Assembly: GCA_018817425.1 (NCBI GenBank)
Contig: JAHITX010000079.1
Location: forward strand, 1 to 64,000
DNA length: 64,000 nt
From: Pseudomonadota bacterium
GTDB taxonomy: Bacteria > Desulfobacterota > Desulfobacteria > Desulfobacterales > RPRI01
Direction: 5' to 3'
Part shown: piece by piece, positions 15,307-41,731 of the stretch
Layout: each line of letters begins with the position of its first letter
How positions within the stretch are numbered: position 1 is the stretch's first letter
Notes under the pieces: generated by a model
The model's database searches: none
Seen by the model: only the letters and a program-made list of their open reading frames with translations
Told to the model about the DNA's origin: nothing
Translations under genes and position numbers: made by a program

Positions 15307-15663
15307 TTATAAGGTCTTAGAAGTAGTATCAAATCTCGGGCATCTGCCAGATGTGTCTGTTACCGTAACTTTATAAGAGTTGGTTCCAACTGTTGAAATA
15401 TCAAAAGTGTTACTATTGCTCAATGTAAGAGTAACTATCCCAACAGAGGAGTTACTAACAGTCTGATTGTCCGGGTTAGAGAAGTAATCGGCAATTGCGC
15501 CCATGACGGTCTGAACATCAGACTCGGCTCCGGAGCAGTATGCTTTGTCCCTGTATGAGATAAAGTTAGGGATGGCTATTGCTGCCAGAATACCGATAAT
15601 TGCGATAACGATCATAAGTTCGATAAGTGTAAAACCTTTTTTGCCTCTTAATTTTTGAATCAT
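15307..15663 (-). CDS. pilA: type IV pilin major subunit, short form
   Basis: Structural subunit of type IV pili. The short leader ([10 protein letters not shown]) is cut by prepilin peptidase before [22 protein letters not shown], with the conserved Glu5 of the mature chain. The product is only 118 residues, and the globular domain has two cysteines (CSGAESD and GRCPRF) in position for a C-terminal disulfide loop. A strong AGGAGA ribosome site precedes the ATG. Upstream is a sigma-54 promoter (15,828-15,844), as expected for PilS/PilR control, and downstream is a strong terminator, so it is a single-gene unit. The exact role (twitching, DNA uptake, electron transfer) cannot be read from the sequence. 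Confidence 0.92.
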
Positions 15664-15827: not shown

Positions 15828-15844
15828 AGCAAAGAACATACCAT
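15828..15844 (-). promoter_or_regulatory. sigma-54 promoter of pilA
   Basis: Read on the minus strand: TGGTATGTTCTTTGCTT. GG and GC are separated by exactly ten bases, and the flanks match TGGYAYR-N4-TTGCW. It lies about 165 bp upstream of the pilin ATG, giving a long 5' leader. Confidence 0.8.
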
Positions 15845-16328: not shown

Positions 16329-16344
16329 TAAGGGGCTTTCTTTA

Positions 16345-16486
16345 GAGCCAGTTTCAAAACGCCCCATTTTGGCCGATCTCTGCGTTGGGTTCAAATTTCA
16401 ATCCTCGAAATACTTAATGTATTCCTGTGGTTGAAATTTTCTCCCGCCTTGAGCTTGACCAAACTGAAACGTTTTGAAAGTGGCTC
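16345..16486 (+). repeat. MITE-like 142-bp repeat, copy 2
   Basis: Full-length copy running from GAGCCAGTTTCAAAACG to CGTTTTGAAAGTGGCTC. It is flanked by a direct repeat TTTA on both sides (16,341-16,344 and 16,487-16,490), which looks like a 4-bp target duplication. Confidence 0.88.
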
Positions 16487-16655
16487 TTTATTAAAAGAGA
16501 ATTTTTTGAGTGATGGAGGGTTTCACCATAAAAAGAGAATTCATGAGCAGTGGGCGCTCTTTATTTAGGAAAAAATTACAAGGATTTAACTTTATTAAAT
16601 TGGACTGAATATATTAATCCAAATGCGTTTACCCTGGCTTTTCTCCGCTTTTCCC

Positions 16656-16706: not shown

Positions 16707-17041
16707 TATGTCGGATTTCTTTACAATTTCAAAGCCACGTAATTCATGCTATAACTATTTAATTTATAATGAATAATGCTATACTTAATACCATCAAATT
16801 CCTTTTTAAGCCCAAAAAGCGTCGGGTTTCTTTACAAAAACAGCTAAAATACTATCTAACATATTATTATATATACAGTTCATGGTTTTTATGGTGCCTA
16901 TTACTTATAATACCTGAATATTGAACTTTTTCCATTTTCAACTTATAAGCTTTTTTAGTTTAACCTAAAACCGTGACCCCTTAAGACCCATATTCAATAT
17001 TCATTTATTTCAATAAACTTAAAAAGATATGAACTCATTTT

Positions 17042-17133: not shown

Positions 17134-17154
17134 GTCGCTTTTCTTTACAATTTT
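17134..17154 (+). promoter_or_regulatory. conserved upstream box of PEP-CTERM unit 1
   Basis: GTCGCTTTTCTTTACAA, one of eight near-identical boxes in the island. It is about 160 bp upstream of the sigma-54 promoter, a fitting place for an enhancer-binding protein. I infer an activator site; the binding protein is not known from this window. Confidence 0.55.
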
Positions 17155-17290: not shown

Positions 17291-17308
17291 CAGGCACATT
17301 CTTTGCTT
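17291..17308 (+). promoter_or_regulatory. sigma-54 promoter of PEP-CTERM gene 1
   Basis: CAGGCACATTCTTTGCTT: GG and GC ten bases apart with good flanks (GGCAC and TTGCT). It lies about 55 bp upstream of the start codon. Confidence 0.82.
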
Positions 17309-17361: not shown

Positions 17362-18120
17362 ATGAAAAATCTGAAAATAATTTTAATTTTAGCAGTATTT
17401 TTGATTGTATCTATTTCAAGTGCATTTGCCGAAAACATTACTATTTTTGATAGCAACGTATATGGTAGTGCAAGTAGCTGGTATAATCGTGGAGATAACC
17501 CAGGTGAAGATCAGGAAGTAGAGTATTATTGTATTGGAACTCAGGCTTGGGATTTAGAAGGATTTTTTTTAAATGGTAATACCTTAAGTATGGTAGGTGG
17601 CTTTAATTTTGATGATGGAGTTTACGCAGGTGGTCGTACTTATAAGTCAGGCGATATCTTTATTGATATAAATGGATTAGATAATGGATATGAATATGCT
17701 ATTAAGTTAAACTTGGATAATAACTCTTCGGACTATTTGAAATATTATGTTTATACAATTGTTGCTGGAACTTTAAACGATGTTACGTATGTAACGACAT
17801 CCAATCCATGGACTTATACTCCAGTTGTGGGTGAATTAGTAACTGGGGCTGGGGGTGATTTCACTCTTGGCAAGAATACTAATTACACTATGGTCTACGA
17901 TTATTCAACGCTTACCGGTGGTACACACTATATATTAGACGGAATTGATTTATCTTTCCTTGGTGGGGGAACAACTTTTACATCACATTTTACTATGGAG
18001 TGCGGTAACGATAATCTTATGGGAAGTGGTACTACAGTTCCCGAACCAGCCACACTTCTCCTTCTCGGCTTCGGTCTGGTAGGACTTGCAGGTGCAGGCA
18101 GAAAGTTTAAGAAAGAGTAG
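17362..18120 (+). CDS. PEP-CTERM sorting domain protein 1
   Basis: Exported protein of 252 residues. The signal peptide covers residues 1-23 (AFA/E cut). The passenger is rich in Asp, Asn, Gly and Tyr and has no family I recognise. The C-terminus is a classic exosortase signal: VPEPATLLLL, a hydrophobic helix, and a basic end (RKFKKE). A strong ribosome site (GGGGAGGAA) precedes the ATG. The gene has its own sigma-54 promoter and upstream box, and is followed by a heptamer array and the shared terminator. The exosortase that would process it is not in the window. Confidence 0.92.
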   Translation: MKNLKIILILAVFLIVSISSAFAENITIFDSNVYGSASSWYNRGDNPGEDQEVEYYCIGTQAWDLEGFFLNGNTLSMVGGFNFDDGVYAGGRTYKSGDIFIDINGLDNGYEYAIKLNLDNNSSDYLKYYVYTIVAGTLNDVTYVTTSNPWTYTPVVGELVTGAGGDFTLGKNTNYTMVYDYSTLTGGTHYILDGIDLSFLGGGTTFTSHFTMECGNDNLMGSGTTVPEPATLLLLGFGLVGLAGAGRKFKKE

Positions 18121-18204: not shown

Positions 18205-18240
18205 CAAAAAGGCAGGGTCTAAACCGGCTCTGCTTTTTTT
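18205..18240 (+). terminator. cassette terminator, copy 1
   Basis: AAAAAGGCAGGGTC / GGCTCTGC hairpin followed by a T run. One base is missing in the 3' arm compared with the other copies. The same terminator and its AT-rich lead-in recur after each PEP-CTERM tail. Confidence 0.8.
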
Positions 18241-18245
18241 ATTTC

Positions 18246-18386
18246 TCAGGCAAGGCAGGAGAAATTTCAACCAGGAATACATTAAGTATTTCGAGGTTAG
18301 CGCTTATGCTTCACTACGTGTCACTTCATGCGAAATTTGAGCCCAACGCAGAGGTCGGCCAAAATGGGGTGTTTTGAAACTGGCTC
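18246..18386 (-). repeat. MITE-like repeat, copy 3 (reverse, rearranged)
   Basis: Reverse-oriented copy that ends in GTTTTGAAACTGGCTC at 18,386. The left end is degenerate, and about 35 bp (TTAGCGCTTATGC...) replace three central bases. It directly follows the terminator of PEP-CTERM unit 1 and stands where the promoter of the micro-gene at 18,429 would be expected. Confidence 0.75.
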
Positions 18387-18428
18387 AGTATGATTTAGAA
18401 TTTCAACAAACAACGGAGAATATAATCT

Positions 18429-18593
18429 ATGAAAACCTTAAAAATAATTTTAATTTTGGCAGTATTTTTGATTATTTCCACATCAACTGCATTAGCCATG
18501 CCTAGTATTACTGTTCCTGAACCTGCAAGTATTATACTGCTTGGTGTCGGGCTGGTAGGGTTAATTATCTCCGGGAATAAATTCAAGAAATAG
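18429..18593 (+). CDS. micro PEP-CTERM protein A (signal peptide plus sorting tail only)
   Basis: A 54-residue ORF. Residues 1-23 are a signal peptide (MKTLKIILILAVFLIIS...ALA), and after five residues (MPSIT) the sorting signal begins: VPEPASIILL, hydrophobic helix, then GNKFKK at the end. Nothing remains that could be a passenger domain. The ribosome site GGAG lies 10 bases before the ATG, as in micro-gene B. The upstream leader matches micro-gene B for about 40 bp and then runs into MITE copy 3, so no sigma-54 promoter is left. It is followed by heptamers and the cassette terminator. It could be a real tiny substrate or a deletion product; both start and tail are intact in frame. Confidence 0.75.
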   Translation: MKTLKIILILAVFLIISTSTALAMPSITVPEPASIILLGVGLVGLIISGNKFKK

Positions 18594-18599
18594 ATTTAA

Positions 18600-18657
18600 A
18601 GCGGTTCTCCATTGACGTTTGAAAACGGTTGCCGGTTGACAGTTCACGGTTGACGGT
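18600..18657. repeat. heptamer array after micro-gene A
   Basis: GGTTGCC, GGTTGAC, AGTTCAC, GGTTGAC, GGTAACG units starting within ten bases of the stop codon. Confidence 0.75.
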
Positions 18658-18693
18658 AACGGTAAAGGAAAATTAAAAAAATAATTCAACAAC

Positions 18694-18728
18694 AAAAAGG
18701 CAGAGTCTAAACCGGCTCTGCCTTTTTT
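18694..18728 (+). terminator. cassette terminator, copy 2
   Basis: AAAAAGGCAGAGTC, loop TAAACC, GGCTCTGCC and a T run. A near-perfect hairpin with T tract. Confidence 0.85.
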
Positions 18729-18821
18729 TATTTTAATTAATATTTATCTCTCACAGAGTACACTGAGATCTCAGGGTTTGTATTATAACCATTGCCACCT
18801 GCAAATAGTCTTTTAACTATC

Positions 18822-18963
18822 GAGCCAGTTTCAAAACGCCCCATTTTGGCCGATCTCTGCGTTGGGCTCAAATTTCAATCCTCGAAATACTCAATGTATT
18901 CCTGTGGTTGAAATTTGCTCCCGCCTTGAGCTTAACCAAACTGAAACGTTTTGAAAGTGGCTC
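18822..18963 (+). repeat. MITE-like 142-bp repeat, copy 4
   Basis: Full-length copy with both inverted ends. It is flanked by direct repeat TATC on each side (18,818-18,821 and 18,964-18,967), a second clear case of a 4-bp target duplication. Confidence 0.88.
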
Positions 18964-19041
18964 TATCAATTTTATATATTATGCGCTTTCGGTTGGGTTC
19001 CGGTATCTTTTTAAGCGCTTTTGATTTTGATAAAGAAACAC

Positions 19042-19061
19042 GGGCGTATTGCAATACGCCC
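19042..19061. repeat. 20-bp perfect palindrome
   Basis: GGGCGTATTG followed by its exact complement CAATACGCCC, then CCTAC. A short dispersed palindrome of the REP type. Confidence 0.7.
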
Positions 19062-19116
19062 CTACGCTATAAACCGTTTTTCTTCATGAAATGCAAACCA
19101 GCAACTGTTTTTCACC

Positions 19117-19137
19117 GTCGGTTTTCTTTACAATTTT
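19117..19137 (+). promoter_or_regulatory. conserved upstream box of micro-gene B
   Basis: GTCGGTTTTCTTTACAA, same box as at 17,134 and 25,090, about 155 bp upstream of the sigma-54 site. Confidence 0.55.
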
Positions 19138-19269
19138 AATTTATAAAAAAACATATTGATCTTTTCTCTGCATAGCGATATAAATATCAAGATAACTGTA
19201 TTTATTTATAATCAATATGTTTAATTGGTTAGTTATAGTATCAAATTTTTAACCCCCAACACTCCATAT

Positions 19270-19287
19270 TTGGTATATTTATTGCTT
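19270..19287 (+). promoter_or_regulatory. sigma-54 promoter of micro-gene B
   Basis: TTGGTATATTTATTGCTT: GG and GC exactly ten bases apart with TTGCT at -12. It lies about 70 bp upstream of the ATG. Confidence 0.8.
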
Positions 19288-19355
19288 ATATTAATTATGA
19301 TGGTAAGGTTAGCGTTACGAATTATAATTTCAACACATAATGGAGAATATAATCT

Positions 19356-19526
19356 ATGAAAACCTTAAAAGTAATTTTATTTTTAGCTGTATCTTTGATT
19401 ATTTCCACATCATCTGCATTAGCCGATTTTGGGCTTCCTACTCCTGTTCCTGAACCTGCAAGCATTATACTTCTTGGTGTCGGCATCGTAGGGTTAATTG
19501 TCTCAGGTAAAAAATTCAAGAAATAG
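19356..19526 (+). CDS. micro PEP-CTERM protein B (signal peptide plus sorting tail only)
   Basis: A 56-residue ORF, sister of micro-gene A (about 75-80 % identical by eye). Residues 1-23 are a signal peptide (SALA/D cut). Eight residues later (DFGLPTPV) the PEP-CTERM begins: PEPASIILLGVG, helix, and basic end SGKKFKK. This copy keeps the full set of signals: upstream box, sigma-54 promoter, GGAG ribosome site, heptamer remnant and terminator. That argues for an expressed gene. No exosortase substrate of this size is known to me; after processing almost nothing would remain. Confidence 0.8.
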   Translation: MKTLKVILFLAVSLIISTSSALADFGLPTPVPEPASIILLGVGIVGLIVSGKKFKK

Positions 19527-19582: not shown

Positions 19583-19617
19583 AAAAAGGCAGGGCCTAAA
19601 CCGGCTCTGCCTTTTTT
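19583..19617 (+). terminator. cassette terminator, copy 3
   Basis: AAAAAGGCAGGGCC, loop, GGCTCTGCC, then T run. Same family as the copies at 18,205 and 18,694. Confidence 0.85.
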
Positions 19618-19770
19618 ATCTCCCTGAAACTGATGCCTTCATGGACTTAAAAACTTATGAGCTTTTTCTTTTTTGCAGCTATCTGCGAACCCTTTTAATA
19701 CCTGGATATTTTCCCCAGGGTAACCACATTTAGCTTTTTCATACAAACTGTTTAGCTTTATATACTGTTT

Positions 19771-20136
19771 TCAGACAGGATTAACAGGATGGACAGGATT
19801 TTTACCTGCCGGCCGGAAGCCGGACAGGCAATAAGCCATTGCCTGAAGCTATAGAAAAAAGAAGCAAAAATGCCTGACCCGCAAAATCACCTATGCACTT
19901 ACCACCAGACTCCGCGAAGCGGATGCATGCTTCGGGCCGCTCTTTCCGGAGCGGTCTGAAATACTTCCTGTTAATCCTGTAAATCCTGTCCGATATTTTT
20001 TTTACGGCTATTTTTATCTTCCGGATTTCGGAATATCTTTGTGATCTCTGAGTACTCTGTGAGTGATTTCCTCGTAAACCTCTTTTCCCCATTAACTGTG
20101 AACCGCAAACCGACAACGGCTTTTAACCGTCAACTG
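19771..20136 (+). repeat. composite ~350-bp repeat R, copy 1
   Basis: The repeat starts with CAGACAGGATTAACAGGA and continues through CGGCCGGAAGCCGG, CATTGCCTGAAGC, CCGCGAAGCGG and TTCCGGAGCGG. The next part is an inverted version of its start (CCTGTTAATCCTGTAAATC), then a TCTCTGNGTACTCTGTGAG segment and heptamers. Five copies occur, all in the same orientation, between toxin-antitoxin modules. Short ORFs within it on the minus strand are artefacts of the repeat. Confidence 0.85.
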
Positions 20137-20272
20137 TTTTCAACTTATGCATTATTCTTTCCCTGTACAGGTTAAAGTAATGCAGGTTAAAGAAATTTGC
20201 CTTTAACCTGAAATCCTGATACCATAAATTTAAACTTTTTGTTAATAACGTTGACTGTATTCCGAGGAGTCA

Positions 20273-20557
20273 ATGAAACTCATATTTGAATGGGACGAAG
20301 TTAAGGCGAAAATCAATCTTAAAAAGCACAAAATTAGTTTTGAAGAGGGTAAAACTGTTTTCAATGATCCCTTACTCTTCACTTTCCCTGATGATGTGCA
20401 TTCTTCGACAGAGGAGCGTTTTATTAGTATTGGCCTTTCTGCAAATGGACTCGTTTTGGTTTTGATACATACTCCAAAACAGAATAAAATACGTATTATC
20501 AGTTGCAGAAAAGCTACAACACGGGAAAGGAAATTCTATGAAGAAAGCAGTCTCTAA
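20273..20557 (+). CDS. brnT: BrnT-like ribonuclease toxin
   Basis: A 94-residue protein of the BrnT family, RelE-fold mRNA-cleaving toxins. Family features: FEWDEVKAKINLKKHKISFEEG at the N-terminus, then ERFISIGLS, and the C-terminal IRIISCRKATTRER motif that carries the basic active-site residues. The gene partner overlaps by 20 bp downstream. The module is bounded by repeat R copies 1 and 2. All the expected motifs are intact, so it may be functional. Confidence 0.88.
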   Translation: MKLIFEWDEVKAKINLKKHKISFEEGKTVFNDPLLFTFPDDVHSSTEERFISIGLSANGLVLVLIHTPKQNKIRIISCRKATTRERKFYEESSL

Positions 20558-20843
20558 AACAAAACCGGATAAGGAAGAAATGAAATCAGAATATGATTTT
20601 TCAAGCATGAAGGGCGCTGTACGCGGAAAATACTATAAAGCATATCGTGCCGGTCACAAAGTAGTTATTCAAAAAGAGGACGGCACTACCGCAGTCCAAT
20701 ATTTTAAACTCGAAGACGGTGCAGTTATGTTAGAGCCGGATGTTAGAAAGTATTTTTCAGATTCGGAATCGGTTAACAAGGCGCTTAGATCTTTAATAGC
20801 AAGCATTTCGTCCAAAAGACAACCATCTGATTATACAAAATAA
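20538..20843 (+). CDS. BrnA-type antitoxin candidate
   Basis: A 101-residue protein encoded with a 20-bp overlap behind brnT, the place of the antitoxin. The sequence EYDFSSMKGAVRGKYYKAYRAG, then DVRKYFSDSESVNKALRSLI, matches the small family often paired with BrnT-like toxins. The DSESVNKALRSLI end resembles a ribbon-helix-helix dimer region. DNA binding and autoregulation would be normal for the family but are not shown here. Confidence 0.75.
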   Translation: MKKAVSKTKPDKEEMKSEYDFSSMKGAVRGKYYKAYRAGHKVVIQKEDGTTAVQYFKLEDGAVMLEPDVRKYFSDSESVNKALRSLIASISSKRQPSDYTK

Positions 20844-20908
20844 GCTGTTGTGCGGATAAACAGTTGCTGCAAGTGTTCTACATAACATATTGGTTCATAA
20901 AGATTTTT

Positions 20909-21246
20909 CAGACAGGATTAACAGGATGGACAGGATTTTTACCTTCCGGCCGGAAGCCGGGCAGCAATAAACCATTGCCTGAAGCTATGGAGACAACAGG
21001 CAAAAACGCCTGAACCGCAAAATCACCTATAGCACTTACCACCAGATTCCGCAAAGCGGATACATGCTTCGGGCCGCTCTTCCGGAGCGGTCTGAAAAAT
21101 ATCCTGTTTATCCTGTAAATCCTGTCCGATATTTTCTTTAAGGCTATTTCTTATTTTCCAAAATCCTGGTAGATCTTCGTGCTCTCTGTGAACTCTGTAA
21201 GTGATTTCTTTACAAACCTCTTTTACCGTCAACCGTAAACTGAAAA
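20909..21246 (+). repeat. composite ~350-bp repeat R, copy 2
   Basis: Same order of blocks as copy 1: ACAGGATTAACAGGATGG, CGGCCGGAAGCCGG, CGCAAAGCGG, CCTGTTTATCCTG, GTGCTCTCTGTGAACTCTG, heptamers. An upstream-box-like sequence (GTCGGTTTCCTTGA) follows at 21,275. Confidence 0.85.
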
Positions 21247-21398
21247 GCTCCAATTGCTTTTTTCCGTCGGTTTCCTTGATAATTTTATATTATAGGAATT
21301 TATAGAGTATCACGCTGTTTTTCCCATTGACTTATAAAACTAATCTCTCTATTATTTAGCCGTGTTTATTAATAAAATTATAGCGTTGTAAAAAATCT

Positions 21399-21793
21399 AT
21401 GGATAATGTTGCAAAAAATTGGATCGCCACATCCAACTATGATATCGAAACTGCGAAGCCATGTATGAGACAGGCAGATATATCTATGTTGTATTCATGT
21501 GCCACCTTGCTATGGAAAAAATGCTTAAAGCTATATTGGCAATTAAATATCCCGACAACATACCTCCTAAAATTCATAACCTGATTAATCTTGCACAAAG
21601 AGCCGAAATAACACCCCCTGCTAATCTGAAGGATTTTTTTCAAAGAATAGATAATGTCAGTATAGTCACGCGTTATCCTGAAGATTTAAAAACACTAACA
21701 AAAGAGTTTGATAAAGATACAGCCAAACTTATTCTGGCCGATACAAAAAGGATGATAAAATGGCTAAAACTTCAGTTAAAATACGCCGTATAA
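21399..21793 (+). pseudogene. HEPN-domain toxin, split by a one-base frameshift
   Basis: The N-terminal part starts at 21,399 (MDNVAKNWIATSNYDIETA) and reads out of frame after about 21,454. The rest continues in the next frame from 21,461 (MYETGRYIYVVFMCHLAMEK...) to 21,793. Joined, they give a normal HEPN protein of about 130 residues. One missing G in the run GCGAAGCC (expected GCGGAAGCC) explains the break. HEPN proteins of this kind are RNases or partners of the MNT nucleotidyltransferase encoded next. If the frameshift is real, the toxin lacks its first helix unless translation restarts at 21,461. A sequencing error is the alternative. Confidence 0.75.
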
Positions 21794-22089
21794 TCAAACT
21801 GTATATAGAAAATTTACAGGAAATAGGCGTACCTGTTCAGAAGGTGTATTTGTTCGGCTCCCAGACCGGCCTTAATGCAAGCATTGAAAGCGATATAGAT
21901 CTGGTTGTTGTATCACCTCTTTTTGAAAAGAAGAGTCTCTGGGACAGAGCAGGATATCTGGGAAGGGCTGCATGGAATATACAATACCCACTTGATATCC
22001 TCGGCTTTGCACCATCACAGGTTAGAAAAGCAAAACCAGGAACATTGCTGAATCACATAATTAAAAACGGTATTGAAATTACAAACTGA
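21760..22089 (+). CDS. MNT-type nucleotidyltransferase antitoxin
   Basis: A 109-residue minimal nucleotidyltransferase. It has the GS-x10-DxD signature (LFGSQTGLNASIESDIDLVVV) that binds metal and nucleotide. In HEPN/MNT systems it inactivates the HEPN toxin, in studied cases by adding AMP residues. It overlaps the HEPN gene by 34 bp in the usual order. The ORF is intact although the HEPN gene is broken. Confidence 0.85.
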   Translation: MAKTSVKIRRIIKLYIENLQEIGVPVQKVYLFGSQTGLNASIESDIDLVVVSPLFEKKSLWDRAGYLGRAAWNIQYPLDILGFAPSQVRKAKPGTLLNHIIKNGIEITN

Positions 22090-22237
22090 TTAACATGCTC
22101 TTTATTTCCGCACACAGGCAAGGCTGGTTATGAATCAGCTCCTGCTCTTCTTGTTCTTCTGATTTATGATCTCCTTTCTATTTCCAGCATAGCACACAGA
22201 GGTCTCAGGGTTTTTGCTTTGTCGTTAGTAAAGTTTT

Positions 22238-22580
22238 TAGACAGGATTAACAGGATGGACAGGATTTTTACCTTCCGGCCGGAAGCCGGGCAGCAATAAA
22301 CCATTGCCTGAAGCTATGGAGAAAAGAGGCAAAAATACCTGACCTACAAAACCACCTCTGTACTTACCACCAGATTCCGCAAAGCGGATGCATGCTTCAG
22401 GCCGCTCTACCGGAGCGGTCTGAAAAACATCCTGTTAATCCTGTTAATCCTGTCCGATATTTTTTTTAAGGCTATCCTTTATTTTCCAAAATTCTGGTAG
22501 ATCTTCCTGCTCTCTGTGTACTCTGTGAATGATTTCTTCGCAAACCGCTTTCACCGTCAACCGTAAACTGTAAACTGATA
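22238..22580 (+). repeat. composite ~350-bp repeat R, copy 3
   Basis: Same blocks and order as copies 1 and 2, beginning AGACAGGATTAACAGGATGG and ending in GTNAACC heptamers. Confidence 0.85.
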
Positions 22581-22639
22581 TCTGCTTTTCCCCGTCAATT
22601 GTTAAATGTCTTCTCCCTTGCGGCCAGTTACACCATATT

Positions 22640-23086
22640 TCAAGGCAGGTTTTCAAAATCGTCTAAATCTTTATGCCTTCCACTCGATTTCTTATTAATC
22701 TTCAATTGTTTCAAATTAATGATATTTACTTCAATTCCATCTATTTCATCGACAATCTTTTGCTTAAAGCACTCCTCAAAATTAACACCGGAAATCGTTG
22801 TTAATATTTCAATCCGTATAGGAGCAATACCCATGCGTATAATACTGTTCTTTTTAAGGAACAGTTCTTTTGATAATTGGGGTGTATCAAAACCGAATTC
22901 TTTTAAAGCCAAAACCATTTGCTCCGCAGTTTCAGGATCTATCGCTATCCAAATATCCATATCATTTGTTGCTCGTGGATATCCATGATAGCCAACAGCA
23001 TATCCACCAATCAACAAGTATCTGATATGTTTAATCTTGAGTATATTCAAGAACTCTTTGAAGTCTGGAGGTAGCAGCATGTCCAT
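22640..23086 (-). CDS. nucleotidyltransferase-fold protein (TA-type)
   Basis: A 148-residue protein with a nucleotidyltransferase signature: LLIGGYAVGYHGYPRATNDMDIWI (residues about 24-47), then RIEILTTISGV and a C-terminal DLDDFENL. The family is widespread in TA-like pairs (AbiEii/DUF6036-like). It is encoded on the minus strand, the opposite orientation to the other modules in the array. It overlaps the end of the upstream small gene by 56 bp. Toxic activity is inferred from the pairing only. Confidence 0.7.
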   Translation of the reverse strand: MDMLLPPDFKEFLNILKIKHIRYLLIGGYAVGYHGYPRATNDMDIWIAIDPETAEQMVLALKEFGFDTPQLSKELFLKKNSIIRMGIAPIRIEILTTISGVNFEECFKQKIVDEIDGIEVNIINLKQLKINKKSSGRHKDLDDFENLP

Positions 23087-23279
23087 AATTAATCCTTCTT
23101 AATACTTCAATATGTCGCATTCTTTCAATTGGAGTCCTGGCAAACCAATAGTTCTTGTCATCCGATTGATCTGATAATGACACAACTGAGAAGAAACTTT
23201 TGTCTAATTTTATATCAACCAATTCTTTATCCATATCTTTCACTTTCGTCATAATATCATCATTTATATTTATTCTCAT
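23031..23279 (-). CDS. partner of the nucleotidyltransferase (antitoxin-like)
   Basis: An 82-residue protein. Its C-terminal half (YWFARTPIERMRHIEVLRRINYG...TSRLQRVLE) matches the short proteins that commonly precede this kind of nucleotidyltransferase gene. The 56-bp overlap with the next gene suggests translational coupling. No DNA-binding motif is obvious. Confidence 0.65.
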   Translation of the reverse strand: MRININDDIMTKVKDMDKELVDIKLDKSFFSVVSLSDQSDDKNYWFARTPIERMRHIEVLRRINYGHAATSRLQRVLEYTQD

Positions 23280-23359
23280 GTTATCATTACTATCTATTAT
23301 TAATGCTTATATGTCAAGCCATCTTCCTTTTATCCACCAGGTAACCGCATTTAAATTTT

Positions 23360-23704
23360 CAGACAGGATTAACCGGATGGACAGGATTTTTACCTGCCGG
23401 CCGGAAGCCGGACAGGCAATAAGCCATTGCCTGAAGCTATAGAGAAAAGAAGCCAAAACGCCTGACCCGCAAAATTTTGTACTTACCACCAAACACCGCG
23501 AAGCGGATGCATGCTTCAGACCGCTCTTCCGGAGCGGTCTGAAAAATAATCCTGCTAATCCTGTAAATCCTGTCTGATAATTTTTTTTCTTAAGGGCTAT
23601 CCTCATTTTCCGGCTTCCCGGAAGATCTTCGTGATCTCTGTGTACTCTGTGAGTGATTTCTTAGCAAACCGCTTTTACCGTCAACTGTAAACTGACAACC
23701 GATT
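23360..23704 (+). repeat. composite ~350-bp repeat R, copy 4
   Basis: CAGACAGGATTAACCGGATGG start, CCGGCCGGAAGCCGG, CCGCGAAGCGG, CCTGCTAATCCTGTAAATC, GATCTCTGTGTACTCTGTG and GTCAACTGTAAAC heptamers. Confidence 0.85.
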
Positions 23705-23816
23705 TTCCCCGTTGGAATAAAATACCTACTTATTACCTACTTATTATGTTGATGAAAATTAAATAAATAGATATGATCCATTCATCAAATAAATAAAATA
23801 ACATGGAGGTGTCTCA

Positions 23817-24020
23817 ATGAAATTAAAAATTATATTGGAACCAAGCGATGAAGGGGGTTTTACAGCTATAGTACCATCTTTGCCCGGTTGTATAAGTGAA
23901 GGAGATTCAAAAGAAGAGGCTTTAACCAATATTCAGGAAGCTATAAAGCTTTTTTTAGAGCCGGTTGAAGATGATTTCGATTTTGCACCTAACGCAGAAC
24001 TTTTGGAAATAGCTGTATGA
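23817..24020 (+). CDS. hicB: HicB-like antitoxin
   Basis: A 67-residue HicB fold: KIILEPSDEGGFTAIVPSLPGCISEGDSKEEALTNIQEAI is the degenerate RNase-H-like core typical of the family. A GGAGG ribosome site precedes the ATG (ATGGAGGTGTCTC). The C-terminal DNA-binding part is very short. It overlaps hicA by 4 bp, the usual arrangement when hicB comes first. Confidence 0.88.
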   Translation: MKLKIILEPSDEGGFTAIVPSLPGCISEGDSKEEALTNIQEAIKLFLEPVEDDFDFAPNAELLEIAV

Positions 24021-24244
24021 CAAAAGTACCAAGCCTTCATTATGAAAAAGTTATAAAGGCATTACGTCGAGACGGATGGGTAGTAGTTAGGCAAAAAGGA
24101 AGTCATATTCGATTACAGAAACATACTTCTACTGAAACTTTTAAAATTATTATTCCAGCCCATCGTCCTATAAAAAGATCGACACTCTCATATATTTTAA
24201 AACAGGCTCAAATGACTGTAGATAAATTTATAAATCTTTTATAA
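24017..24244 (+). CDS. hicA: HicA-like mRNA interferase toxin
   Basis: A 75-residue dsRBD-fold toxin. The catalytic His of the family is in GSHIRL (residue about 31), after RDGWVVVRQK. The C-terminus (KRSTLSYILKQAQMTVDKFINLL) is typical. Reading frame and active site are intact. The module lies between repeat R copies 4 and 5. Confidence 0.9.
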   Translation: MTKVPSLHYEKVIKALRRDGWVVVRQKGSHIRLQKHTSTETFKIIIPAHRPIKRSTLSYILKQAQMTVDKFINLL

Positions 24245-24286
24245 TAAAGCATATTATAACCTTACTAATTTTTTTGCCTTTTCCTT

Positions 24287-24552
24287 AAACCATTGCCGGA
24301 GGCTATGGAAAAAAGAGGCAAAAACGCCTGACCCGCAAAATTGCTGTATTTACCACCAGACTCCGCAAAGCGGATACATGCTTCAGGCCGCTCTTTTCCG
24401 GAGCGGTCTGAAATATTTCCTGTTTATTCTGTAAATCCTGTCCGATATTTTTTTAAAGGCTATTTCATATTTTCCATAATTCCGGAAGATCTTCGTGATC
24501 TCTGTGTACTCTGTGAGAGATTTCTTCGCAAACCGCTTTTACTGTCGGAATT
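24287..24552 (+). repeat. composite repeat R, copy 5 (5' truncated)
   Basis: It starts inside the unit at AACCATTGCCGGAGGC and lacks the ACAGGATTAACAGG block and the GGCCGGAAGCC palindrome. The rest follows the same order, and it ends at the upstream box near 24,544. Confidence 0.8.
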
Positions 24553-38066: not shown

Positions 38067-40304
38067 ATGGATAATAATTCATCAATAGTCCCGCCACAGA
38101 CTAATTCCTCACAGGAACGTTCGAGACGTAAAAGAGAAGGCATTATAATTATTGCAATTATATTTGTTGTCGGCTTTTTAACATTTCTTGAAACCAGAAT
38201 AATTAAATTTGGAGCAGGGATTCCGGTATCAAATACCGTTTTGATGTTTATTCTGATCAACGTTAATTTGTTATTACTCATTCTGCTGATATTTCTGGTA
38301 TTCAGAAATCTGTTCAAGCTTCTTTATGATAGAAAGAAAAACGCCATCGGCGCGAAGCTTCGCACGAAACTCGTCATAGCTTTTGGCGCTCTAACTCTTT
38401 TACCAACAATAATTTTGTTCTTTTTTTCCATAAGTTTTATAACAACAAGCACTGAATTCTGGTTTAAAGTTCCCATTGAACAGGCCCTTGATCATTCATT
38501 GGATGTCGGAAGATACTATTATGGGCAGGTTCAGGAAAATAACAGATTTTATATAGAAAGAATTGCATACCAGATTAATAATAAGAACTTGCTTGACCCT
38601 GCCAGGAAAAAATCACTTTTTCACTATCTACAGGTTGTGCAGAGGTCGTTCAATATCCAGGCAATAGAACTTTATGACAGCAATTACAAACGTATGACTT
38701 TCATCCTTCCGCTTGGCATGGAAGATATGCCATTGAGAGTTCTTGATCCGGATAACTTTAAAAAGGATATACCCCCGTATGGTGTAAGAACCATAACTGA
38801 AATAGTGGAAGACAGAGAACTCGTCAGAACTATAGGGACAGTTCCATTTGGAGTTCAGCCTTCCGAAGCTAACTGTTATATCGTATTATCAACCAAACTT
38901 TCTCATCGGCTTTCCAAGAAGATGAAGTCTATTTCTCTTGGCTTTGAGGAATATCAGCAAACAAAGCTTTTAAAAAAGCCCATTCAAATCTCATATTATA
39001 TATTACTATCCATAGTAGCATTACTTGTGCTTTTTTGCGCTATCTGGTTCGGATTTTATCTTGCCAAATCCATCACGATTCCCATCATGGAACTTGTAGA
39101 AGGTACCAGGCGTGTTGCAGAAGGAGACTTAGGTTTTACGTTAGATGTAGCTTCTGATGATGAAATAGGAAGTCTTGTGGATTCATTTAATAAAATGACA
39201 AAAGACTTGAGAAACGGCAGGGACCAGCTTGAGCTTTCCGCTAAAAAGCTTGAACTGCAAAACATCGAGATAGAAGAAAAACGCCAATATATGGAAATCG
39301 TCTTAAAAAATGTTTCAACCGGTGTTATTACTCTTGATTCAAAGGGGATGGTTACTACCATTAATAAATCAGCTGAAAAAATGTTAAATCTTAAACAGGA
39401 TGAAACTCTGGGCAAAAGCTATAAAGATTTGTTGCCTGATCAGAATGTTAACATAGCCGAAGAAATAAAAGAAAATCTGTTTATAGCACAGGATAATGCT
39501 TTGGAAGTTCCTTTAAATCTTTTTGTAGGGGGAAGACGCCGTAGCTTTCTTATGAATGTAAATGCCTTAAAAGATGATACAGGTCAACATATGGGCGTTG
39601 TGATGGTTTTTGATGACTTAACCGAGCTTGAAAAAATTCAGAGGATGGCTGCATGGCGTGAGGTTGCACGCCGGATAGCGCATGAAGTAAAAAATCCTCT
39701 AACGCCTATAAAGCTTTCCGCCCAAAGGCTTCAGCGTAAATATTCAGATCAGTTGAAAGAGCCGGTATTTGAAGAATGCACACAAATGATAATTGACCAT
39801 GTAGAATTAATAAGAAATATTGTAGATGCATTTTCAACCTTTGCAAGATTTCCATCGGCAAATCCCATTCCTTGTGATTTGGCTCCTATAATCAGGGAAA
39901 CCGTTGCACTGTATAGGGAAGGGCATCAGAATGTAATTTTTGATACAATAATTTCGGATAACATTCCACAGCTTAATCTTGACAGGCAGCAAATAAAACA
40001 GGCAATGATAAACCTGGTCGATAATGCTGTTACCGCAATTAAAGAACATGGGAATATTGCAATTTCACTTGAGCATAATAAGGAAGCAAAAGTAATCAAA
40101 ATTGAAATTGCTGATGATGGTGCAGGAATATCGGAAGAAGATAAGGCACGTATTTTTGAGCCCAATTTTTCAACAAAAAAAGCCGGATCAGGTTTGGGGC
40201 TTGCTATCGTAAATACAATTATATCAGATCATAAAGGCGTTATTAGAGTACAGGATAATTACCCTAAAGGAGCAAAGTTTATTATTGAGTTGCCAATAAT
40301 ATGA
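38067..40304 (+). CDS. NtrY-like sensor histidine kinase
   Basis: A 745-residue membrane kinase. It has two transmembrane helices near residues 25-45 and 55-80, a third near 105-125, an extracytoplasmic domain (about 125-300) and a fourth near 310-330. HAMP follows (about 330-385), then PAS (about 400-510), the phospho-acceptor in ARRIAHEVKNPLTPIKLSAQRL (His near residue 540), and an ATPase with the N, G1 and G2 boxes (NLVDNAVTAI, IADDGAGISEED, SGLGLAIVNTI). It pairs with the response regulator downstream. NtrY types sense redox or nitrogen status in studied species. Confidence 0.9.
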   Translation: MDNNSSIVPPQTNSSQERSRRKREGIIIIAIIFVVGFLTFLETRIIKFGAGIPVSNTVLMFILINVNLLLLILLIFLVFRNLFKLLYDRKKNAIGAKLRTKLVIAFGALTLLPTIILFFFSISFITTSTEFWFKVPIEQALDHSLDVGRYYYGQVQENNRFYIERIAYQINNKNLLDPARKKSLFHYLQVVQRSFNIQAIELYDSNYKRMTFILPLGMEDMPLRVLDPDNFKKDIPPYGVRTITEIVEDRELVRTIGTVPFGVQPSEANCYIVLSTKLSHRLSKKMKSISLGFEEYQQTKLLKKPIQISYYILLSIVALLVLFCAIWFGFYLAKSITIPIMELVEGTRRVAEGDLGFTLDVASDDEIGSLVDSFNKMTKDLRNGRDQLELSAKKLELQNIEIEEKRQYMEIVLKNVSTGVITLDSKGMVTTINKSAEKMLNLKQDETLGKSYKDLLPDQNVNIAEEIKENLFIAQDNALEVPLNLFVGGRRRSFLMNVNALKDDTGQHMGVVMVFDDLTELEKIQRMAAWREVARRIAHEVKNPLTPIKLSAQRLQRKYSDQLKEPVFEECTQMIIDHVELIRNIVDAFSTFARFPSANPIPCDLAPIIRETVALYREGHQNVIFDTIISDNIPQLNLDRQQIKQAMINLVDNAVTAIKEHGNIAISLEHNKEAKVIKIEIADDGAGISEEDKARIFEPNFSTKKAGSGLGLAIVNTIISDHKGVIRVQDNYPKGAKFIIELPII

Positions 40305-40378
40305 TGGGCTTGATAAAAGTAGATTAATACGTTCTTAGGGTATAAACCACAGTCTGGGGGAGGAAGGGATAAAAACCA

Positions 40379-41731
40379 ATGTTTCCATCGATACTAATAG
40401 TAGATGATAACCCGTCAATTCTTCAATCTTTAAAAGGTCTTCTTGCAGATGAAGGTTTTGAAGTAATGTTGGCTTCAAACGGATATGAAGGTTTAAAGAC
40501 TATAGATAAGAAATCGCCTGATCTTGTTCTTTTAGATATATGGATGCCGGGTATTGACGGAATAGAAACTTTAAAACAAATTAAAAAAAACAATCCCCAT
40601 ATACAAGTCATTATAATAACGGGACATGGCAATATTGAGACTGCAGTTAAAGCCATTAAGCTTGGCGCATACGATTTGATTGAAAAACCCCTTTCGATTG
40701 ATAAGATAATAGTTACAATAAATAATGCGTTAAATTTTAGAAGACTGGAAGAAGAAAACAGATATCTTCGAAAGAAAACAATAGAAAAAAATTCTGTGTC
40801 CGGAAACAGCGAGGCAATTGTTTATCTTAAGAAAAAAGTAGCCGCTGTTGCTCCATCCGATGCATGGGTTTTAATTACTGGTGAAAACGGAACAGGAAAA
40901 GAACTTGTTGCGCGAACAATTTTTCAGCTTAGTCCCCGTGTAGATGGGTCTTTTATTACCGTTGATTGTGTTACTATTCCGGAAGAGTTGATAGAAAGCG
41001 AACTTTTCGGACATGAAAAGGGAGCATTTGAAGGAGCAATTTCAAAAAAGATAGGCAAATTTGAATTGGCCGGCAGCGGAACTATCTTTCTTGACAATAT
41101 CGGTGAGATGCGCCTGAAAACCCAGGCTAAAATACTTAGAGCACTTCAGGAAAAAAAGTTTCAGAGGGTAGGTGGGAGCAGGATTATAAATATAAATGCA
41201 AGGTTAATTGCTGCCAGCAATAAACCTCTTGAAATAGAAATTGAAAAAGGGAATTTCAGAGAAGACCTGTATCATCGCCTTAATGTTGTTCCGATTGAGG
41301 TTCCTGCATTAAGAAATCGCAAAGATGATATTCCTGTTTTAATCGATACTTTTTTAGCTGAATTTGCGATGCAGAGCAATAATGAAAAGAAAACACTTTC
41401 CCCGAAAGCAATCGAATTATTATCCAACTATTTGTGGCCCGGCAATGTAAGGGAGTTAAAGAATCTTGTTAATCAGCTTGCCATAATGACCAGGGAAAAT
41501 ATTATTGATGTTTCCGATATCCCCGATCAATATAAACCGGCTGTTGAAGAAGTTCCTGAACCGGTCAAATCCGAGTTGTTTTTAATTGATCGGCTAAAAG
41601 ATGCTAAGCGGGCTTTTGAAAAAGAATTTATTAAAATAAAGTTGTCGGAAAATGATAAAAATATTGCCAAAACCGCAAAAGAAATTGATGTTGGTCGAAG
41701 TTATCTTTATAAAATAATAAAGAGTTTGTAA
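40379..41731 (+). CDS. NtrX-like response regulator with altered GAFTGA loop
   Basis: A 450-residue NtrC-family regulator. The receiver domain has Asp53 as phospho site (LLDIWMPGIDG). The AAA+ domain has Walker A GENGTGKE (168-175) and Walker B GTIFLDNIGEM (234-244). The C-terminus is a Fis-type helix-turn-helix (NIAKTAKEIDVGRSYLYKI). Residues 215-220 read GAFEGA instead of GAFTGA, the loop that contacts sigma-54. Such a change often goes with a regulator that does not open sigma-54 promoters. It follows ntrY by 74 bp and is followed two bases later by rsmD. Confidence 0.9.
   Translation: MFPSILIVDDNPSILQSLKGLLADEGFEVMLASNGYEGLKTIDKKSPDLVLLDIWMPGIDGIETLKQIKKNNPHIQVIIITGHGNIETAVKAIKLGAYDLIEKPLSIDKIIVTINNALNFRRLEEENRYLRKKTIEKNSVSGNSEAIVYLKKKVAAVAPSDAWVLITGENGTGKELVARTIFQLSPRVDGSFITVDCVTIPEELIESELFGHEKGAFEGAISKKIGKFELAGSGTIFLDNIGEMRLKTQAKILRALQEKKFQRVGGSRIININARLIAASNKPLEIEIEKGNFREDLYHRLNVVPIEVPALRNRKDDIPVLIDTFLAEFAMQSNNEKKTLSPKAIELLSNYLWPGNVRELKNLVNQLAIMTRENIIDVSDIPDQYKPAVEEVPEPVKSELFLIDRLKDAKRAFEKEFIKIKLSENDKNIAKTAKEIDVGRSYLYKIIKSL

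Follow-up and report, generated by a model that had tools for sequence, protein, structure and literature searches.

Two PEP-CTERM micro-genes beside a full-length paralogue: candidate payload-free exosortase substrates in a desulfobacterial genome

Most of what is known about exosortase systems comes from sequence, and genes of very small size are easily overlooked in annotation. In the window (the whole stretch of 64,000 nucleotides that was analysed), two micro-genes, A and B, encode little more than a secretion signal and a surface-sorting signal. The question raised by this locus is whether such products are genuine substrates, remnants of a larger gene, or empty expression cassettes into which passengers are gained or lost.

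Anatomy and control of the micro-genes

Micro-gene A (18429..18593, + strand, 54 aa) is composed of MKTLKIILILAVFLIISTSTALA, the spacer MPSIT and VPEPASIILLGVGLVGLIISGNKFKK, and micro-gene B (19356..19526, + strand, 56 aa) of MKTLKVILFLAVSLIISTSSALA, the spacer DFGLPTP and VPEPASIILLGVGIVGLIVSGKKFKK. Both ORFs are complete and had been correctly placed and read in the initial annotation as signal peptide, short spacer and PEP-CTERM tail. The predicted signal peptides have a basic start, a hydrophobic core and an ALA cut site following the A-X-A rule; the spacer from the predicted signal-peptidase site to VPEP is 5 residues long in A and 7 in B, and the tails consist of VPEPAS, a helix and a basic end (NKFKK or KKFKK). 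Both proteins exceed the cut-offs of PF07589 (A 27.5 and B 26.7 bits, cut-off 20.7) and TIGR02595 (A 23.8 and B 24.4 bits, cut-off 16). Moreover, the ribosome site and terminator ascribed to each gene are found in both: GGAG lies 10 nt 5' of the ATG, and strong T-tailed hairpins follow A (18694..18727, + strand, folding z -6.8) and B (19583..19616, + strand, z -6.4, with one G-U pair in the stem). The source genome has 43 PEP-CTERM matches; no complete micro-gene other than A and B was found in it, and candidates on contigs C127 (a 67-aa frame), C62 and C63 were rejected because they had no start, no signal peptide, or ran into a contig end. A plasmid search with B as query gave no match.

The two genes share with the PEP-CTERM/exosortase system (TIGR02595, PF07589; Haft 2006, PMC1569441) the predicted signal peptide, the PEP-CTERM tail and the presence of exosortase in the genome, and in the case of B also the PrsR box and sigma-54 promoter; they differ in having only 5-7 residues before VPEP, whereas ordinary members sampled are mostly of about 140-360 aa. 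The initial annotation's premise that substrates carry a passenger of tens to hundreds of residues applies to most PEP-CTERM proteins, but not to TIGR04200 (NCBIfam, PExPT-CTERM targets of XrtJ), whose full model has 57 positions. Tiny exosortase targets are, then, already known, and by profile score A and B fall outside that family: B aligns along most of the model but reaches 12.8 bits against a cut-off of 40, A is not among the listed matches, and neither is a member. A search of the open library for literature on XrtJ or very small PEP-CTERM proteins found none. The flocculation protein PepA (NF033554), whose transcription is RpoN-dependent (PMC9850573), matches the tail of B and most of the neighbouring gene P weakly, but all scores are far below the 80-bit cut-off, and neither A nor B contains a passenger.

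PEP-CTERM genes of proteobacteria have been described with an upstream 17-nt motif that ends in TTTACA and precedes a -24/-12 sigma-54 site; PrsR is the likely activator of the genes bearing it (Haft 2006, PMC1569441). By motif search, B has both elements on the + strand, as annotated earlier: an exact PrsR-type box (19117..19132, GTCGGTTTTCTTTACA) and a sigma-54 (-24/-12) site (19271..19286, TGGTATATTTATTGCT) of a kind expected by chance about 0.006 times per 250 nt. The gap between them, about 138 nt, is longer than the 32-92 nt of Haft 2006 (PMC1569441). In the PEP-CTERM genes of the source genome the box reads GTCGG-N5-TTTACA, a pattern occurring 53 times genome-wide versus 3 times for the reversed control; of these 53, 33 stand 5' of a PEP-CTERM gene (15 genes in all), against about 1% expected in such positions. 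PrsR itself is encoded on contig C20 (TIGR02915, 642 bits, cut-off 502.6). A kinase and sigma-54 regulator in the window (38067-41731) were rejected as PrsK/PrsR, their best match being NtrX and the TIGR02915 score (400.8 bits) lying below the cut-off. The genome also encodes exosortases, with two full PF09721 matches (234.5 and 160.9 bits), both above the TIGR02602 cut-off, and one partial match. As judged from these motifs and profiles, B has the box, the -24/-12 promoter and the PrsR in the same genome that mark a member of the PrsR/sigma-54 regulon. The Rfam scan of the window gave 0 matches above gathering scores, and B is therefore taken to have no known riboswitch. Upstream of A, the motif search found neither PrsR box nor sigma-54 site.

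Gene P, MITEs and the origin of A and B

Sequence comparison identified gene P (17362..18120, + strand), encoding a 252-aa PEP-CTERM protein, as the full-length paralogue of A and B. P has its own PrsR-type box (17134..17149, + strand, GTCGCTTTTCTTTACA; cf. motif 1 of Haft 2006, PMC1569441) and sigma-54 site (17292..17307, + strand, AGGCACATTCTTTGCT), each found by motif search with one mismatch, and a terminator identified by folding (18206..18239, + strand). Two more exact PrsR-type boxes lie 0.5-0.65 kb upstream of P (16710-16725 and 16821-16836), and an exact sigma-54-like site on the minus strand (15828-15843, TGGTATGTTCTTTGCT) is found about 165 nt upstream of a pilin-like gene (15307-15663).

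The predicted signal peptide, the tail and the terminator are common to P, A and B. Furthermore, the control region, 5' end and terminator of B are homologous to those of P, and the whole P control region is present at B. An orthologue of P occurs in a genome of the same genus (G001:C148:16117-16854, minus strand; 68% identity by the search's own count, 56-59% by BLASTP), and P, B and this orthologue have in common the predicted signal peptide, the ribosome site and both control elements (box and sigma-54 site). From these alignments, A and B are diverged paralogues of P minus its passenger. Since the G001 gene has P's control region and also P's passenger, the full-length form has relatives; the best reading of A and B is as copies from which the passenger was lost, and loss is the better-supported direction. 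The spacer of A, MPSIT, resembles the end of the P passenger before VPEP (MGSGTT), as would be expected of a deletion, a likeness too short to serve as proof. A homology of P to the passenger gene beside a micro-gene of another order (in G539) was weak once signal peptide and tail were excluded, and was set aside.

The initial annotation had argued from the near-identity of the two copies against independent deletions. That near-identity was overstated: the proteins are about 80% and the DNA cassettes 77% identical, and the spacers are unrelated, so one deletion is indistinguishable from two and the argument, resting on copies that have diverged, is weak. A single shared deletion would still be the more economical account, though not a proven one.

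The homology of A to the upstream region of B ends at a variant, inverted MITE-like copy (18246..18386, - strand, left edge approximate) that stands in place of A's promoter region. A has thus lost its box and sigma-54 promoter to an abundant MITE; the gene is now probably silent, in decay or transcribed by read-through. The edge of the element creates a sigma-70-like pattern (18374-18401), of a kind no commoner than chance here. In a genome-wide comparison, the MITE family (about 142 bp) has 40 scored copies out of 301 candidates, most of them 97-98% identical; they lie in the window at 16340-16487 and, downstream of A, at 18817..18964 (+ strand), and at 38 more places in the genome. Copies are often found at contig ends, and the MITE therefore probably breaks the assembly. 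The window also holds, at 19767-24540, 4-5 direct copies of a repeat of roughly 250-370 nt, with about 85% identity and a spacing of 0.9-1.3 kb; between them stand small ORFs resembling toxin-antitoxin or nucleotidyltransferase/HEPN pairs.

Micro-genes in relatives and selection on the tail

Relatives were searched with a profile built from the micro-proteins. No micro-gene was found in nine genomes of the same genus, and A and B are thus local and could be short-lived. Elsewhere, at least 13 further micro-genes of 55-66 aa were recovered, spread over several families of this order and reaching a second order of the phylum. Within the order these are found in G014 (60 aa), G026 (62 aa), G151 (60 aa), G155 (62 aa) and G158 (58 aa, with PES replacing PEP), and in family f21 in G174 (59 aa), G215 (57 aa), G265 (55 aa), G224 (62 aa), G277 (62 aa), G259 (66 aa) and G294 (63 aa). 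The representative of the other order (G539) is a 57-aa micro-gene whose spacer reads VPVNE; it has a terminator and a sigma-54 site of its own (TGGCATACCCGTTGCT) and adjoins two full PEP-CTERM genes and sigma-54 regulators. In all micro-proteins the predicted cut lies about 6-14 residues from PEP, with strict A-X-A sites only in part of them. The best PEP-CTERM matches in 59 genomes are nearly all frames of about 140-360 aa, so that micro-genes are rare and distinct in length from ordinary PEP-CTERM genes. Relatives also hold broken PEP-CTERM tails that have no start; five loci (L109, L110, L111, L116 and L121) were rejected as micro-genes for want of a start or signal peptide, or for lying at a contig end.

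In two genera of f21 (g105 and g129) the micro-gene is followed by the same Arg-rich ORF of 49-53 aa, which suggests that the f21 copies are orthologous. This ORF (RRxGxDRRqFSY..hIPERRSGkeRR) had no match in Pfam or NCBIfam, and related ORFs lie near the G539 and G024 micro-genes (loci of the whole set: L087, L107, L090, L086, L091, L222 and L220). A c-di-GMP-I riboswitch precedes the micro-genes of G174 and G215 (f21, g105) and of G151 (family f10), with the aptamers directly 5' of the genes (L086 1316-1391, L091 1770-1845 and L080 1753-1830). A motif GCATG-N4-TTGCAT, sigma-54-like with the usual GG absent, is found 42-271 nt 5' of micro-genes in two families (L086, L091, L100, L087, L107, L152, L090 and L106). 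Genus g129 further contains short lipoprotein PEP-CTERM proteins (about 70-84 aa, several copies per genome; L154, L162, L163, L169, L170, L174 and L175), laid out as MKKLFM..GIxGC, a low-complexity spacer and a PEP-CTERM tail.

Among the f21 micro-genes of G224, G277, G294 and G259, dN/dS is 0.08-0.35 (p 0.0096 to 3e-8), and for the G174/G215 pair 0.37 (p 0.013), values that indicate purifying selection and are rough where dS is saturated. Recurrence in relatives, together with this selection on orthologous micro-genes, bears out the earlier suggestion of a real class of tiny substrates. For A versus B the whole-gene value is 0.43 (p 0.067), and that of the tail alone 0.18; selection on this pair taken alone is only suggestive. 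The spacers of orthologues are about as alike as shuffled ones, whereas 22-27 of the 27 tail residues are retained, and selection therefore appears to act on the sorting signal rather than on a payload. A conserved tail is expected in any PEP-CTERM protein, and for that reason the occupancy role considered below rests mainly on the unconserved spacer.

Possible roles of a substrate with no payload

That the micro-proteins are exosortase substrates is well supported by their anatomy and, in relatives, by selection. An origin by passenger loss is likewise supported, by the alignments with P, and was followed, in other lineages at least, by persistence. To the combined reading, that A and B are payload-free substrates derived from a tandem copy of P that lost its passenger, with a role as sorting signals occupying the exosortase, we assign about an even chance. 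According to it, a tandem copy of P would have lost its passenger and given rise to A and B, and PrsR and sigma-54 would switch on B alongside the other PEP-CTERM genes. Export by Sec and cleavage by signal peptidase I after ALA would yield a peptide of about 31-33 residues held in the membrane by a single helix, with PEP at the membrane face, 6-8 residues projecting outside and the basic end inside; the exosortase would bind this peptide and probably cut it. Because the spacer is unconserved and the tail conserved, function most likely resides in the sorting signal and not in a specific displayed peptide; the signal would occupy or buffer the exosortase during induction of the surface-protein regulon. 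A broader version, in which such substrates form a dedicated class that has arisen repeatedly, is induced together with the PEP-CTERM regulon or else by c-di-GMP, and sets sorting flux through exosortase occupancy, is put forward tentatively and seems unlikely as it stands.

The strongest rival for A, and a possible one for B, is that the micro-genes are functionless vestiges of a duplicated PEP-CTERM gene, left in frame by chance after deletion of the passenger, the rearrangements being supplied by frequent MITE activity and the repeats around the locus. Overall we regard this as somewhat improbable. The micro-genes are confined to this genome among ten of the genus searched, A's promoter has gone to a MITE, start-less broken tails occur in relatives, and the simulated neutral survival of both frames (0.01-0.18, by the rates assumed) is not negligible; however, in B the frame, the ribosome site, the terminator and both control elements (box and sigma-54 site) are kept, the dN/dS of the A/B tail is low, and in f21 purifying selection on genes of this architecture is clear. 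It is unlikely, to a greater degree, that the exosortase transfers a minimal N-terminal peptide of 6-14 residues to lipid or exopolysaccharide, its presence and not its sequence modifying the surface. The predicted secretion signal and the sorting tail are intact in all examples, and the c-di-GMP riboswitches 5' of two f21 copies and one f10 copy would suit such a role, riboswitch-controlled PEP-CTERM genes having been reported in a biofilm bacterium (PMC12530212), but the near-chance identity of orthologous spacers counts against it. Finally, an empty cassette that repeatedly gains passengers, with the micro-genes as its intermediate state, might be read from PEP-CTERM genes in which conserved, cassette-like ends flank a variable middle, P and B having both ends in common; yet the f21 micro-genes remain micro even where dS exceeds 1.7, and no copy that had regained a passenger was seen, which makes this reading very improbable. 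Of the initial annotation's cassette proposal it is thus the loss of passengers, favoured by the P/B homology and the G001 control region, that stands, and not their gain.

Recurrent in relatives and in places maintained by selection, payload-free genes of this kind look like a genuine class of minimal substrates for surface sorting that has been overlooked. A natural substrate that is nearly passenger-free, governed by the normal regulon and under selection in other species would offer a minimal handle for an exosortase assay, and would let one ask whether competition among substrates regulates sorting in cells.
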